Positions 9,826 to 23,318 of a stretch of DNA of 64,000 nucleotides are shown here, in pieces; the first letter of the stretch is position 1, and every line of letters starts with the position of its first letter. This stretch comes from Hyphomonas atlantica corrig. (lineage in GTDB: Bacteria; Pseudomonadota; Alphaproteobacteria; Caulobacterales; Hyphomonadaceae): positions 1 to 64,000 of the forward strand of contig NZ_AWFH01000045.1 in the NCBI RefSeq assembly GCF_000682715.1, read 5' to 3'. Position numbers and translations under genes: made by a program. Below the pieces are notes generated by a model. That model saw only the letters and a list, made by a program, of their open reading frames with translations, had not been told where the DNA came from and did not search any database.

Positions 9826-12619
<2,794 letters not shown>

Positions 12620-17629: not shown

Positions 17630-17658
17630 TGATCCAATCTGCGCGCCCATGCGTAAAC
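17630..17658 (+). promoter_or_regulatory. Candidate ECF-sigma (RpoE/ChrR-type) promoter of the photolyase operon
   Basis: TGATCC at 17630-17635 is followed after 16 bases by CGTAAAC (17652-17658). As I recall, promoters of the alphaproteobacterial RpoE-ChrR (ECF11) sigma factor combine a TGATCC -35 with a -10 around CGTA/TAAGA at this spacing. In Rhodobacter sphaeroides that regulon, induced by singlet oxygen, includes photolyase and cyclopropane-synthase-like genes. Transcription would begin about 10 bases further on, which rules out the ATG at 17649 and supports the GTG start at 17694. No rpoE-chrR pair is in the window. Confidence 0.6.
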
Positions 17659-17693
17659 ACATCAGAACCGCTCGCATGCAATCCGGAGGTCTT

Positions 17694-19148
17694 GTGTCAC
17701 AATCTGCGCCCGCCATCGTCTGGTTCAGGGAAGATCTGCGTTTATCGGACAATCCTGCATTACATGCTGCAGTGGCATCGCATCGGCCGCTTATCCTGCT
17801 TTACATCCACGATGAAGAAACAGACGGCCTGCGCCATCATGGCGGAGCATCGAAATGGTGGCTCGACAAATCCCTCCGTGCGCTCGCGGGCGACATAGAA
17901 GCCGCTGGCGCCCAGTTGACCCTGCGCTCTGGCAAATCCAACGAAGTCCTCGATGCTGTCCTGAACGTCACCGGGGCGGACGCGGTGTTCTGGAACCGTC
18001 GCTACGACAAGCCTGAGCGCGATCTGGACGCCCGCATCAAGGCAGATCTCACCGAACGCCGCATCGACGTGACCAGCTATAATGGCCGCCTGCTCAACGA
18101 GCCCTGGGCGGTCGAAACCAATGCGGGCGGCTATTACAAGGTCTTTACGCCCTATTGGAAACAGGCACGCCAGTGCATCAATGCCCGCGACACGTATGGT
18201 CGTCACAAGACGCTGAACGGACCGGACGTCGACAGCGAGTCTCTCGACGATTGGGGCCTGCATCCAACCAAGCCAGACTGGTCGACCGGCTTCGACGATT
18301 GGACGCCCGGAGAGGACGGCGCACTCGCCCGGCTGAAGGAATTCCTCGACGGGCCGATCAATGGCTACAAGGACAATCGCGACCGGCCTGACTTGGACTG
18401 GTCGACATCCGGCCTGTCCCCGCATCTCCGCTTCGGAGAAATCGGCCCGCTGCAGATCTGGCGCGCTGTCCATGCCGGCATGGAAGCGGGCAACATCCAC
18501 GAAAAGGATGGCATGCATTTCCTGTCCGAAGTGGGTTGGCGCGAATTCTCCCACACGCTGCTCTACTACAATCCGGACCTCGCGACGGAAAACTACAACG
18601 ACTCCTTCCAGCACATGCCCTGGCGCACGGACGAGACCGCGCTGGACGCATGGAAGAAAGGCCAGACCGGCTACCCGATGGTCGATGCCGGCATGCGCCA
18701 GCTATGGCAGACAGGCTGGATGCACAACCGGGTACGGATGATTGTCGCGTCCTTCCTGACCAAACATCTTCTTCTGCCCTGGCAAGAAGGCGAAAAATGG
18801 TTCTGGGATACGCTGGTCGATGCCGATCCGGCGAACAATTCCGCCAGCTGGCAATGGACCGCGGGGTCCGGCGCTGACGCTGCGCCCTATTTCCGCGTGT
18901 TCAACCCGATCAGCCAGGGAACCAAGTTTGACGAATCCGGCGACTATGTGCGCCGCTTCTGTCCGGAACTGAAAGACCTGCCCGACAAATACCTCCACGC
19001 CCCGTGGGAGGCCGACAAGGCCACGCTGAAGAAAGCCGGCATCACGCTGGGCGAGACCTATCCGAAACCCATTGTCGACCATTCTGCCGCGCGCCAGCGC
19101 GCCCTCGACGCCTATGATACGCTGAAAGAAAAAAGAGACGCCTCATGA
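17694..19148 (+). CDS. phrB: Deoxyribodipyrimidine photolyase (class I CPD type)
   Basis: Photolyase uses FADH- and blue light to split pyrimidine dimers. The N-terminal antenna domain starts AIVWFREDLRLSDNPAL. The FAD domain carries LSPHLRFGEIGPLQIW, EVGWREFSHTLLYYNP, TGYPMVDAGMRQLWQTGWMHNRVRMIVASFL and DADPANNSASWQWTAGSGADAAPYFRVFNP, all diagnostic of class I CPD photolyases. The GTG at 17694 was chosen because GGAGG (17685-17689) lies just before it and because the likely promoter overlaps the ATG at 17649; an ATG at 17676 has no ribosome site. The protein is then 484 aa. It is the first gene of a four-gene operon whose members overlap by 4 bases each. Confidence 0.95.
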   Translation: MSQSAPAIVWFREDLRLSDNPALHAAVASHRPLILLYIHDEETDGLRHHGGASKWWLDKSLRALAGDIEAAGAQLTLRSGKSNEVLDAVLNVTGADAVFWNRRYDKPERDLDARIKADLTERRIDVTSYNGRLLNEPWAVETNAGGYYKVFTPYWKQARQCINARDTYGRHKTLNGPDVDSESLDDWGLHPTKPDWSTGFDDWTPGEDGALARLKEFLDGPINGYKDNRDRPDLDWSTSGLSPHLRFGEIGPLQIWRAVHAGMEAGNIHEKDGMHFLSEVGWREFSHTLLYYNPDLATENYNDSFQHMPWRTDETALDAWKKGQTGYPMVDAGMRQLWQTGWMHNRVRMIVASFLTKHLLLPWQEGEKWFWDTLVDADPANNSASWQWTAGSGADAAPYFRVFNPISQGTKFDESGDYVRRFCPELKDLPDKYLHAPWEADKATLKKAGITLGETYPKPIVDHSAARQRALDAYDTLKEKRDAS

Positions 19149-20461
19149 AGAAAATCGCCATCATCGGTTCCGGCATTTCGGGTCTCGGCGCAGCCTGGGC
19201 GCTGCGCAATTCCGCACACGTAACAGTTTTTGAACAATCAGGCCGGGCCGGGGGGCACGCATGCACGCATGCGTTCGACTATGACGGTCATGAAACGCGG
19301 GTTGATCTCGGCTTCATTGTCTACAATGCGCTGAACTATCCCAACCTGATCGGCTTCTTTGATGCGCTCGGCGTCGAGACGCAGGCGTCGGATATGAGTT
19401 TCTCCGTGTCCGACCCGAATGGCTGGGAATGGGCCTCGACCCTGAACGGCATCTTCGCCCAGCGCCGCAACCTGCTCAGCCCGCGTTTCCACCGCTTCTG
19501 GCGCACCATCCTGCGCTTCAACGACATTGCCCGCGAGGAACTCGCCGCTGGCCACATCACCGATACAACGCTCGGCGCCTGGCTGGAGCGGCACGGCTTC
19601 GACGAGGATTTCCGCGTCAATTACATCCTGCCAATGGGCGCGGCGATCTGGTCGACCTGTGAAGACAAGATGCTCGACTATCCCGCCATGAGCTTCTTCC
19701 AGTTCTTCGACAATCATCGCCTGATGCACAAGGAGCGCCCGAAGTGGCGCACCGTGTCCGGCGGCAGCAATCACTATGTCCGCCGCGTTGTGGACACGCT
19801 CGGCGACCGTATGCGCCTCGATGCGGGCGTCGAGCGTCTTTTCCCCTTCGGTCACCAGACCGCCCTCGTCACGTCGGATGGCCGCCGCGAGGTGTTTGAC
19901 GAAGTCATCATCGCCACGCATTCAGATCAGGCCCTGCGCCTGACGCAGGAACACTACGAAGATCAGGCCTTTCTGCTCCGCTCCGTTCGCTATCGCCCGA
20001 ACCGCATCTATCTTCACCGCGACCCTGCCCTGATGCCCGCCCGCAAGGCGGCATGGGCCAGCTGGAACGTGATGAAGCAGGACAGCGGAGACATCTGCCT
20101 GACCTATTGGATGAACCGCCTTCAGGGCCTACCGGATGAACGCCCGCTGTTCATCACGCTGAACCCGGATACACCGCCGCGCGACGATCTGGTCTTTCAC
20201 GAATACGAGTTCGACCATCCGCAGTTCGACGCGGCCGCCGAGGCTGCCGTGCGTGGCCTGAAGCGCATTCAGGGGCAGGATGGCCTCTGGATCGCCGGGG
20301 CATGGATGGGGCGCGGCTTCCACGAAGATGGCCTGAAATCCGGCCTGTCGCCCGCGCTTTCGCTCGGCGGTTCGGTTCCGTGGACACCGGAAGGCGTGGA
20401 CATCGTGCAGCCAATGCGCAAGCCTCGCCTTGTGGAAGTCGCTGCCGAGGTATCTGTGTGA
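19145..20461 (+). CDS. FAD-dependent amine oxidase-like protein (COG2907 type)
   Basis: A 438-aa flavoprotein opening with IAIIGSGISGLGAAWALR (4-21), then the FEQSGRAGGHACTHAF flavin loop; RVDLGFIVYN is typical of the COG2907 branch. The C-terminal FAD-closing segment is GLWIAGAWMGRGFHEDGLKSGL. Proteins of this group sit beside DUF1365 and cyclopropane-fatty-acid synthase-like genes in many proteobacteria. A relative in Rhodobacter has been linked to modification of unsaturated membrane fatty acids, so a lipid desaturase/oxidase role is plausible but not shown here. The start overlaps the photolyase stop (ATGA), and its own stop overlaps the next start (GTGA). Confidence 0.85.
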   Translation: MKKIAIIGSGISGLGAAWALRNSAHVTVFEQSGRAGGHACTHAFDYDGHETRVDLGFIVYNALNYPNLIGFFDALGVETQASDMSFSVSDPNGWEWASTLNGIFAQRRNLLSPRFHRFWRTILRFNDIAREELAAGHITDTTLGAWLERHGFDEDFRVNYILPMGAAIWSTCEDKMLDYPAMSFFQFFDNHRLMHKERPKWRTVSGGSNHYVRRVVDTLGDRMRLDAGVERLFPFGHQTALVTSDGRREVFDEVIIATHSDQALRLTQEHYEDQAFLLRSVRYRPNRIYLHRDPALMPARKAAWASWNVMKQDSGDICLTYWMNRLQGLPDERPLFITLNPDTPPRDDLVFHEYEFDHPQFDAAAEAAVRGLKRIQGQDGLWIAGAWMGRGFHEDGLKSGLSPALSLGGSVPWTPEGVDIVQPMRKPRLVEVAAEVSV

Positions 20462-21279
20462 CGAAACTGACCGCCCAGCCAGCCCTGAGCCTCTGGACCG
20501 GCCAGACCGTCCATGTGCGCTACACCCCGTTCGAGCGGCGCTTCGCCTACAAACTTGTGCTGATCGACCTGGACATCGACCGTCTCGATGAGGCCGCCGC
20601 ATCTTCTGCTCTGTTCAGCGTCAACGCTCCGGGCCTGTTTGCCTTTCGCACACAGGATCATGGGCCGAAACAGGCAGGCGCGCCCTTGCGTCCCTGGGCT
20701 GAGGCGGAACTCGCCAAGGCAGGTGTCAGCCTCGATGGCGGCGCGATCCGGCTGGTCACCTTCCCGCGCCACCTGTTCTACAAATTCGCGCCACTCTCGC
20801 TCTGGTATGGCTACGGACCGGATGGCGACCTTCGCGGTATCATCTATGAAGTGAACAACACTTTCGGCGAAAGCCATAGCTATGTCGCCGCCGTAAAGGC
20901 CGGCCGCAACCGTCACAGCGCGCCGAAATCCTTCCACGTCTCGCCTTTCTTCGACGTGACCGGAACCTATCGCTTCACCCTGCGTTCGCCGGAAGACAAA
21001 TTGGGGGTGGTCGTGGAAAGCCTGAAAGACGGAAATTGCCTGCACATGGCCAATATCACGGCCCGCAAGCGGCCCGCGACCCGCGCAAACCTGCTCAAAC
21101 TCGCTGTGACAAACCCACTTTCCACGCTTGGCGTAACCGTCGGGATCCACTGGCAGGCCTTGAAGATCTGGCTGCGCGGCGCAGGCTATCGCAGCAAACC
21201 CAATCCGCCAGAAACAACCTCAACCATTGCCTTGCCGTTACAGATACGTAATGCTGGGAAACGGAGGGATGCCGCATGA
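20458..21279 (+). CDS. DUF1365 family protein
   Basis: A 273-aa protein of the DUF1365 family, recognised by the opening LWTGQTVHVRYTPFERRFAYKLVLIDLDIDRL, by LVTFPRHLFYKFAPLSLWYGYGPDGDLRGIIYEVNNTFGESHSY, and by its position between the flavin oxidase and the CFA synthase homologue. The start is a GTG that shares bases with the stop of the preceding gene, and its stop shares ATGA with the next start. The biochemical role of DUF1365 is not established; context points to membrane-lipid modification under oxidative or photo-oxidative stress. Confidence 0.88.
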   Translation: MTKLTAQPALSLWTGQTVHVRYTPFERRFAYKLVLIDLDIDRLDEAAASSALFSVNAPGLFAFRTQDHGPKQAGAPLRPWAEAELAKAGVSLDGGAIRLVTFPRHLFYKFAPLSLWYGYGPDGDLRGIIYEVNNTFGESHSYVAAVKAGRNRHSAPKSFHVSPFFDVTGTYRFTLRSPEDKLGVVVESLKDGNCLHMANITARKRPATRANLLKLAVTNPLSTLGVTVGIHWQALKIWLRGAGYRSKPNPPETTSTIALPLQIRNAGKRRDAA

Positions 21280-22499
21280 CCGAGGTCATACACGCCAGCG
21301 CCCAGACCATTCGGAACCTCAAGGATGTTCCGGCAAGCTTTCGTCTGGCCGCCTTCGCGCTGCTGAACACACAGAGTGGCAGCATATCCTTTGTCCTGCC
21401 GGGTGATCGTGTCCTGGAATACCGACATGACGAAACCGGTCCGCACGCGACCATTATCGTGCACAATTACGACTTCGTGAAACGCGCCATGGCAGGCGGG
21501 GATGTCGGCTTTGCCGAGGCGTATATGGATGGCGACTGGTCCACGCCGGACCTGACCGCCGTGTTGCGCTTCTTCTCGGCCAATTTCGACAATATCGGAA
21601 AGCTTGCCGTAGGCGGAACGCTTGTTCGCTGGATCAACATGGTCCGCCATATCTTCAATCGTAACTCCCGCGAGGGCGCGAAGAAGAACATCATGGCCCA
21701 TTATGATCTGGGCAATGATTTCTACAGCCTTTGGCTGGATCCCAGCATGACCTATTCCTCGGCCATCTTCGATAGCCCGAACATGAGCCTCGAACAGGGC
21801 CAGCACAACAAATACAGCAACATCTGTGACCGGATCAGTGCCGGGCCGACTTCGGAAATTCTTGAAATTGGGTGCGGCTGGGGCGGCTTTGCCGAATACG
21901 CCGCCAAGCATCGCGGCTCGAAAGTCACGTGCCTGACCATTTCGCCCTCACAGCGCGACTTTGCCATGCAACGGATGCAGAAGCAGGGCCTGAACGAGCG
22001 CGTAGAGATCCGGCTGGAAGACTACCGGGATCACAAAGGCTCTTATGATGGCGTCGCCTCCATCGAAATGTTCGAAGCGGTCGGGGAATCCTACTGGCCC
22101 AGCTATTTTGCGAAAATCTTCGAGAGCCTGAAACAGGGCGGCAAGGCGGCGCTGCAGATCATCACGATTGATGACCATCTCTTCCCCAGATACCGCAAAC
22201 GGGTGGACTTCATCCAACGTCACATTTTTCCGGGCGGCATGTTGCCCAGCGAGACAGCGCTGAAAGACCAGTTCCAGTCTGCGGGCCTGCGCCATGATGG
22301 TGTCACCTATTTCGGCCAGGATTATGCCCGCACCTGCCGTGAGTGGGCGCGTGATTTCAACGCCAATTGGGACACGATCTCGAAATTGGATTTCGATGAG
22401 CCTTTCCGCCGCATGTGGAATTTCTACCTGTCCTACTGCGAAGCCGGCTTCACCGATGGCCGCATCAATGTCGGCCAGTTCCAGGTGTCAAAGGCTTAG
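21276..22499 (+). CDS. cfa: Cyclopropane-fatty-acyl-phospholipid synthase-family methyltransferase
   Basis: Members transfer a methyl(ene) group from SAM to a cis double bond of membrane phospholipid acyl chains. In 407 aa, the N-terminal lipid-binding region contains GDVGFAEAYMDGDWSTPDL. It is followed by AHYDLGNDFYSLWLDPSMTYSSAIF, the SAM loop ILEIGCGWGGFAEYAA, IEMFEAVGESYWPSYF and HIFPGGMLPS, the CFA signature blocks. Its operon partners suggest it may belong to the methylated or furan fatty-acid branch rather than being the housekeeping Cfa; that is inference. The start overlaps DUF1365 by 4 bp. A GAAA-loop hairpin lies 11 bp downstream. Confidence 0.9.
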   Translation: MTEVIHASAQTIRNLKDVPASFRLAAFALLNTQSGSISFVLPGDRVLEYRHDETGPHATIIVHNYDFVKRAMAGGDVGFAEAYMDGDWSTPDLTAVLRFFSANFDNIGKLAVGGTLVRWINMVRHIFNRNSREGAKKNIMAHYDLGNDFYSLWLDPSMTYSSAIFDSPNMSLEQGQHNKYSNICDRISAGPTSEILEIGCGWGGFAEYAAKHRGSKVTCLTISPSQRDFAMQRMQKQGLNERVEIRLEDYRDHKGSYDGVASIEMFEAVGESYWPSYFAKIFESLKQGGKAALQIITIDDHLFPRYRKRVDFIQRHIFPGGMLPSETALKDQFQSAGLRHDGVTYFGQDYARTCREWARDFNANWDTISKLDFDEPFRRMWNFYLSYCEAGFTDGRINVGQFQVSKA

Positions 22500-22510
22500 G
22501 TTCGCTCCGC

Positions 22511-22532
22511 CTCTCCGGCGAAAGCCGGGGAG
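22511..22532. terminator. GAAA-tetraloop hairpin after the lipid operon
   Basis: CTCTCCGGC-GAAA-GCCGGGGAG makes a 9-bp stem with one wobble pair, 11 bp after the cfa stop. There is no T-run, so it may stabilise the 3' end of the operon RNA or be a dispersed palindromic repeat rather than an intrinsic terminator. Confidence 0.4.
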
Positions 22533-22634
22533 ACGGCCCCCATAATGCCCCACAAACCTTCCCGAAACTTCAATTAAAACAACACCCCACCAGATCCGAA
22601 TCCGACAGGTAAATCCGCCGCGCATCCTGCTCGC

Positions 22635-23318
22635 ATGTCGGATTTGCGCTACACCCCTCCCACCGAAATCCGCTCGGCGGTCTGGCTGATGCTGAACGTG
22701 CTCAGCCTCGCCGTGATCTCCCTGCGAGAGCGGTTTGGCATTGCGCCGTGTACGCCTTTCTTGCCCCGGCATGTCCTCAGCAGCCTGTCCAGCTTTCTGG
22801 CCCAGGCTGAACCGGCGCTGCGCCGATGTCTCTATCTCAGCGCGGCAGAGCTCGGCGCCCTGCCCGCACCGGCCCCCATCATGGCGTCGCCTAACAGGAA
22901 ATCCCGGCCCGGCAATGCCGTCGCTCGTTCGTCGGCACCTCCGACATTTCGACTGTTCGAAGCCGGCTTAGGCCGCAAGGACGCGTCGCCCCCACCCAAG
23001 ACCTTCCGCACCGGTCCGCGCATCCGCTTCCTTGATGGAGATGATACGCCAGACATTCACGAATATGATGCGCACTCTGATGACATCCTGCCGGCTCGCG
23101 CACTCGTGCGTCGGCTGGCCGCCTTGGACCACGCGCTCGACCATCGAGACGTCTACATCCGCAAGCTCCGCCGCGCCCTCGGTGCGCCGCGAGCCTTGCT
23201 CAAACCCATCGGCAAACGCCTCTACCGGCGCGGCCCGCTCAGCTTCCTGCAATGCCAGACGGCCCGGGCGCTGGAGGCGGAAGCGCAGGCCGTCCAGCCC
23301 TATTTCAATTCATCCTAA
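22635..23318 (+). CDS. Hypothetical protein, 227 aa
   Basis: A soluble-looking protein without signal peptide. Residues 10-50 are a hydrophobic helical stretch (RSAVWLMLNVLSLAVISLRERFGI). The centre is a proline-rich, low-complexity linker, and the C-terminal 80 residues form a charged helical region (LVRRLAALDHALDHRDVYIRKLRRALG). I recognise no domain. The long frame with a normal high-GC third-position pattern supports a real gene. The ATG at 22635 has no strong ribosome site and the start is uncertain. It follows the lipid operon on the same strand at 135 bp and faces pyrG. Confidence 0.6.
   Translation: MSDLRYTPPTEIRSAVWLMLNVLSLAVISLRERFGIAPCTPFLPRHVLSSLSSFLAQAEPALRRCLYLSAAELGALPAPAPIMASPNRKSRPGNAVARSSAPPTFRLFEAGLGRKDASPPPKTFRTGPRIRFLDGDDTPDIHEYDAHSDDILPARALVRRLAALDHALDHRDVYIRKLRRALGAPRALLKPIGKRLYRRGPLSFLQCQTARALEAEAQAVQPYFNSS

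Follow-up and report, generated by a model that had tools for sequence, protein, structure and literature searches.

Introduction

In Rhodobacter sphaeroides, the sigma factor RpoE (sigma-E) and its anti-sigma partner ChrR control a singlet-oxygen regulon that comprises rpoE-chrR itself, phrA, cfaA/ufaM, the genes RSP1087-1091 with ufaD and ufaO, and rpoHII, which sigma-E drives directly (PMC6852236). Here, we describe a related system in Hyphomonas atlantica. It centers on an operon of a DNA photolyase gene, phr, and three putative lipid genes, ufaD, ufaO, and ufaM, located in a 64,000-nucleotide stretch of the genome (assembly GCF_000682715.1, contig NZ_AWFH01000045.1, positions 1 to 64,000; referred to below as the window).

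The chemistry of the lipid genes has been worked out in R. sphaeroides and R. palustris: UfaM adds a methyl group to vaccenate, UfaD produces the methyl diene, and formation of the furan depends on the DUF1365 protein UfaO, so that the trio yields the 9M5 furan fatty acid (PMC7380195). An R. sphaeroides triple mutant needs no more than three R. palustris homologues to make this acid (PMC7380195). UfaD is RSP1091. The window encodes the same three protein families, including a DUF1365 protein as UfaO; the likeness is drawn via proteins of Luteovulum azotoformans, and the product in Hyphomonas is a predicted one.

Operons that combine photorepair and lipid genes are also known. In Pseudomonas syringae, PSPTO_1121 (phrB) to PSPTO_1114 unite a photolyase, a flavin amine oxidase, a UfaO homologue, and cfa in one unit under PSPTO_1043; it has an aGATCC-N16-CGTA promoter and a chromatin immunoprecipitation peak, and is induced by overexpression of the ECF11-type sigma factor (PMC5507510). 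Unlike the operon in the window, it contains more genes, and the P. syringae rpoE-chrR pair has a motif of its own; the word "furan" is absent from the main text of that paper (PMC5507510). In Shewanella oneidensis, SO_3386-SO_3374, assigned to RpoE2, likewise form a single operon that includes phrB and cfa and is preceded by TGATCC-N16-CGTA (PMC4336711). That operon is longer than the one in the window, the regulon was assigned by promoter match, and rpoE2-chrR has the motif as well, there with a mapped start (PMC4336711).

The Hyphomonas system resembles that of R. sphaeroides in its promoter type and in having photolyase, ufaM, ufaD, ufaO, and an rpoH gene as targets. It differs in that a single operon joins both lipid loci downstream of phr, and in that the sigma-chrR pair is unlinked from them, lacks the motif, and encodes a ChrR whose anti-sigma domain has no zinc ligands. 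The operon is thus of a known kind, published for Pseudomonas, and the control side is the variant.

Results

The operon and its promoter

The features of the operon, all on the forward strand of the window, are as follows.

17630-17655, +, ECF11-type promoter: -35 element TGATCC at 17630-17635, a 16-base spacer, and -10 element CGTA at 17652-17655
17685-17689, +, GGAGG, probable ribosome-binding site of phr, 4 bases 5' of the GTG at 17694 (direct reading)
17694-19148, +, phr, DNA photolyase of the cyclobutane pyrimidine dimer (CPD) photolyase type, GTG start (PF03441/PF00875)
19145-20461, +, ufaD-like flavin oxidoreductase, predicted methyl-fatty-acyl desaturase (Amino_oxidase, PF01593); 4-base overlap with phr
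20458-21279, +, ufaO-like DUF1365 protein, predicted furan-forming oxygenase, GTG start; 4-base overlap with ufaD
21276-22499, +, ufaM-like S-adenosylmethionine methyltransferase of the cyclopropane fatty acid (CFA) synthase superfamily (CMAS, PF02353); 4-base overlap with ufaO
22507-22536, +, GC-rich hairpin 3' of the operon, possible transcript end, without a T run

A preliminary description of this DNA had claimed a TGATCC-N16-CGTAAAC element before a GTG start, four genes joined by 4-base overlaps, and a phr start at 17694. Direct reading bore out the first claim (the element spans 17630-17658, with CGTAAAC at 17652-17658 and 38 bases between CGTA and the GTG), and reading frames and Pfam families agree with the second, three such overlaps joining phr, ufaD, ufaO, and ufaM. 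As to the third, GTG 17694 is the best phr start; an in-frame ATG at 17649 could not be used from this promoter because it lies just 5' of the -10 element. Both photolyase domains, PF00875 and PF03441, were found in the phr product, whose best solved relative is 4u63 (E 2.8e-161), which we take to be a class III photolyase. The ufaO product matches DUF1365 (PF07103) with 228 bits (E 1.5e-67). The hairpin at 22507-22536 is part of a structure with a folding energy of -23.8 kcal/mol (z -2.36; 5 of 200 shuffles were equally good), and was absent among the terminator-like matches of the scan.

The same description had assigned the promoter to the ECF11 (RpoE/ChrR) type. The window contains a single exact copy of the pattern; shuffled versions held 0.08 copies on average, and 6 of 100 had at least one. 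With one mismatch allowed, five sites were found versus 2.70 expected. Taken in this single sequence, the motif is only mildly unusual. We therefore take the promoter as real because it is conserved across homologous loci, and not from its rarity in one sequence.

Conservation was assessed in 101 genomes (the Hyphomonas genome and 100 relatives), 87 of which, our own included, gave a match in a UfaO protein search. From the 86 matching relatives, 40 loci, mostly the top-ranked, were fetched (29 from the same genus, 9 from the same family, and 2 from the same order); 14 loci of a linked type and five loci of other families were counted apart, and the sample leaves out the other 27 of the 86. 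Together with the window this gave 41 loci, 39 of them scorable (a contig end truncates L059, and L075 is without phr). The exact motif was found 62-80 bases 5' of phr in 38 of the 39, which supports the promoter, and L073 has TCATCC-N16-CGTA, a single mismatch. When the 38 loci were aligned at the motif, whose ten box positions are invariant by construction, the spacer had drifted (13 of 16 columns below half a bit), the strongest exception being an A directly after TGATCC in 95% of the loci. In 250-base stretches, the motif rate was 0.000175 after letter shuffling and 0.0107 without it, the latter figure including real sites. Gene order, too, is conserved: phr-ufaD-ufaO-ufaM lie on one strand in 45 of 46 loci (the 41 and the five of other families), the remaining one being without phr.

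Other genes behind the same promoter type

Our own genome and four others of its genus together contain 47 exact copies of the N16 pattern and five of the reversed pattern. One copy precedes phr in each of the five genomes; another precedes, also in each of them, a gene for a second ChrR-like protein. Two further features belong to this second target.

L010:1291-1815, own copy of the gene for the second ChrR-like protein
L267:5059-7796 (contig C5 of the same genome), a row of the genes for the second ChrR-like protein, a DUF6134 protein, and a photolyase-related protein (PF04244), behind the same promoter

The motif stands 87-102 bases before the start of the second ChrR-like gene in 31 of 31 scorable loci (L262 was not scorable); it is exact in 30, and one has a 15-base spacer. 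The DUF6134 gene follows, with a four-base overlap in our own genome, where the PF04244 gene comes next. In L070, a similar row is convergent to phr-ufaDOM.

The third target is a gene for an RpoH-type sigma factor (NF005693, over the cut-off). Of the 30 best-scoring loci from a search of 61 genomes, 23 carry the exact motif; a single mismatch, always at one and the same position, marks the other seven, and the spacer of one of the seven is also 17 bases long. A further exact motif, L007 (contig C3:60300 of our own genome), is located 8 bases before the ATG of a gene for a membrane-like protein of about 213 residues; for this site, relatives gave no support.

A sigma factor and a ChrR-like protein encoded side by side

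Our own genome encodes one suitable pair of proteins, a sigma factor of 196 residues with an adjoining ChrR-like protein (L009). The best solved relative of the sigma factor is R. sphaeroides RpoE (E 5.8e-41; the next is at 7.9e-18), and 16 of 19 residues are identical to it in the compared stretch of the region-4 helix. For the ChrR-like protein, the solved structure of ChrR from R. sphaeroides gave a match at E 7.3e-26. The sigma factor was found in 76 of the 101 genomes, in single copy in 75 of these (E 1e-35). It co-occurs with UfaO: 75 genomes have both, one the sigma factor only, 12 UfaO only, and 13 neither, five genomes unlisted in the sigma search having been deduced by elimination. 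The Fisher p of 8e-9 is a guide only, since the genomes are related.

Loss of the zinc site and of the motif before sigma

R. sphaeroides ChrR inhibits sigma only when it has its zinc. The ChrR system of Caulobacter is another that responds to singlet oxygen. In Vibrio cholerae ChrR, the C33S substitution leads to constitutive expression, while C36S behaves like the wild type (PMC11976125). According to a review of the model system, it is not settled what exactly the anti-sigma zinc contributes when singlet oxygen is sensed (PMC6852236), and a peptide study proposed oxidation of the cysteine/zinc site as a possible key sensing event, noting that the cupin is required (PMC6432622).

We compared 27 loci of our own type (own locus included), in which sigma-chrR is not adjacent to the ufa genes, with a control drawn from titled genome records, namely the 80 loci that matched R. 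sphaeroides RpoE best, 78 of which gave a chrR match. The H-x3-C-x2-C motif of the anti-sigma domain is present in 76 of the 78 control ChrR proteins and in none of the 27. At three of the aligned zinc sites, the 27 proteins have Q (27), R (27), and V, I, or L (18, 8, and 1; the own protein has Q, R, and V), and at the fourth no histidine occurs in any of them. The cupin metal ligands H, H, E, and H are kept in all 27. Mean pairwise identity is 0.616 for the anti-sigma domain, 0.458 for the linker, and 0.672 for the cupin; the domain is therefore under constraint. The two control exceptions, L223 and L225, keep the histidine and have lost both cysteines. Another record, L217, titled Exiguobacterium profundum, contains a Rhodobacteraceae-like rpoE-chrR-ufa locus, and its label is probably wrong.

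The promoter motif before the sigma gene is lost as well. Neither in exact nor in relaxed form was it found within 300 bases in any of the 27 loci, whereas the control loci have it before rpoE in 77 of 80 cases (exact) or 80 of 80 (relaxed). Upstream of sigma, 24 unlinked loci have a nearly constant GGTTGC and GA-A-TG, which look like a housekeeping promoter. Both the zinc motif and the target motif are also missing from four more unlinked loci, which come from three other families. The linked loci of the same order (L101-L114, with ufaD-ufaO beside sigma-chrR, seven of them from the same genus) are mixed: the zinc motif is present in 5 of 13, and the exact motif before sigma in 7 of 14. The six own-genus loci L107-L112 are zinc-free, and five of the six keep the motif before sigma, so zinc loss and motif loss are separate events; L113, also linked, is not zinc-free. 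In a sigma tree with several long branches and weak deep forks, the unlinked zinc-free rows fall on one side together with L107-L112. No zinc-free ChrR of this group came up among the entries listed in our literature searches.

A ChrR without the zinc ligands might no longer inhibit, in which case sigma would always be active, or be set by its amount only, and the operon would not be stress-induced. The zinc requirement in R. sphaeroides, the constitutive C33S mutant of V. cholerae (although C36S is like the wild type), and the fact that none of the 27 proteins has a ligand at any of the four aligned positions speak for this. Yet conservation of the anti-sigma domain comes close to that of the cupin, and Gln and Arg are fixed at two ligand sites. 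Zinc-free anti-sigma domains are, moreover, common in general: RseA-type domains retain their fold without zinc, and about 28% of the soluble anti-sigma domains in this class are without the zinc motif (PMC7406223). We consider loss of inhibition unlikely. In our reading, ChrR would bind sigma in a zinc-free form. We propose tentatively, and at somewhat less than even odds, a singlet-oxygen switch in this bacterial group without the anti-sigma zinc finger that others have suggested as the sensor: a re-packed zinc-free ChrR domain would hold sigma, the cupin alone would sense, and autoregulation of sigma would be replaced by the second ChrR-like protein, induced from the same promoter type and damping the response.

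The lipid trio

The trio was compared through L. azotoformans proteins only, as a stand-in for the R. sphaeroides and R. palustris enzymes; the sigma factors of L. azotoformans and R. sphaeroides share 94% of their residues over the compared stretch. In L. azotoformans, ufaD-ufaO adjoin rpoE-chrR, and phr and ufaM stand side by side behind an exact promoter. Identity of the window proteins to the rpoE neighbors (L146) is 42% for UfaD and 35% for UfaO, and to the phr-ufaM pair 42% for phr and 49% for UfaM. The UfaM of the window differs from 6bqc, which we take to be Escherichia coli CFA synthase, in having YSSA for YSCA, IEMFEAVG for VGMFEHVG, and LQIIT for LHTIG. Some of the differing residues are presumably bicarbonate ligands in CFA synthase. 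The Ser, the Gln, and IEMFEAVG are shared with L. azotoformans UfaM, while three solved CFA synthases, 6bqc included, have Cys, His, and VGMFEHVG. By these residues, ufaM of the window appears UfaM-like rather than a cyclopropane synthase. For UfaO, no solved relative was found by sequence.

A methyl furan fatty acid is, by analogy with the published trio, the likely product. The promoter could be right and the pathway still end elsewhere, at a methylated or methyl-diene acid only, or at a different oxygenated acid; the moderate identities just given and the lack of a solved UfaO relative leave room for this. That the full trio is present in 46 of 46 loci tested for order (phr in 45), that UfaM sides with its L. 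azotoformans counterpart at the residues above, and that three R. palustris homologues alone are enough for the 9M5 acid in the R. sphaeroides triple mutant (PMC7380195) make another end product improbable, somewhat more so than loss of ChrR inhibition.

Neighboring genes

Downstream of the operon, at 22635-23318 of the window, there is a 227-residue reading frame with no family match over the cut-off. At 11339-12619 the window encodes a member of the indoleamine 2,3-dioxygenase family (PF01231, E 1.5e-85), which is unusual in bacteria.

Discussion

It is, in our assessment, highly probable that the four genes form one unit read by a single RpoE-like (ECF11-like) sigma factor, controlled by ChrR, in a response of DNA repair and furan-lipid synthesis. 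Singlet oxygen or an organic peroxide would cause the ChrR-like anti-sigma factor to release sigma, which would transcribe phr-ufaD-ufaO-ufaM as one unit from TGATCC-N16-CGTA. Released sigma would act on at least three target units, the others being the row of the second ChrR-like, DUF6134, and second photolyase genes, and the gene for the RpoH-type sigma factor, which would set off a wider response. The photolyases would repair DNA using light. UfaM would methylate a vaccenoyl chain on phospholipid, UfaD add a second double bond, and UfaO insert oxygen, and the resulting methyl furan fatty acid would react with singlet oxygen in the membrane. Sigma itself may be made at a steady level, feedback being supplied by the induced second ChrR-like protein. 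The enzyme activities, product, and inducer are predicted here from the named homologues.

Several points weigh against this reading. The own ChrR is without the zinc site that R. sphaeroides ChrR needs for inhibition, and no motif precedes sigma in any of the 27 loci. The ChrR-like protein scores 121.0 bits, just below the curated ChrR cut-off of 124.5; relatives of the same type score both above and below it. Identity of UfaD and UfaO to the L. azotoformans rpoE neighbors is moderate. In the five loci of other families, the motif before phr is exact in two, has two mismatches in two, and is no better than three mismatches in one, and the 14 linked sigma-chrR-ufaD-ufaO relatives have no phr within the fetched stretch. 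A PF00124 search found no photosynthetic reaction-center gene in the own genome; the singlet oxygen may therefore come from an external source. Expression, the transcription start, and the lipid product given for this organism are predictions from the comparisons above.

That another sigma factor reads the motif, the RpoE-like one controlling something else, is very improbable: further sigma genes exist (14 region-4 matches in the own genome, 11 over the cut-off, the RpoE-like sigma included) and the sigma operon is itself without the motif, but 77 of the 80 titled control loci carry the exact motif ahead of rpoE, published RpoE/ChrR targets contain it as well (PMC5507510, PMC4336711), and UfaO and sigma co-occur in the relatives, which are not independent of one another.

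The preliminary description had read the locus as a photo-oxidative membrane and DNA repair module, and the sequence comparisons support it in this. The rpoE-chrR pair on which its reading depended is present as an RpoE-like sigma gene adjoining a ChrR-like gene, and the search it suggested for other TGATCC-N16-CGTA sites led to recurrent ones, before the second ChrR-like gene and the RpoH gene. Its suggestion that the trio modifies a fatty acid agrees with the published UfaD/UfaO/UfaM set (PMC7380195). It did not foresee that the operon type was already known elsewhere, or that the sigma/ChrR pair is a variant, with an anti-sigma domain lacking the zinc site and no motif before sigma.

The locus brings DNA photorepair and predicted furan-lipid synthesis together in one small conserved operon, in a genome with no match to the PF00124 reaction-center family. 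Its control side represents a natural clade that keeps the targets and the cupin site and is without the zinc site, which makes the debated role of zinc in the ChrR switch directly testable.

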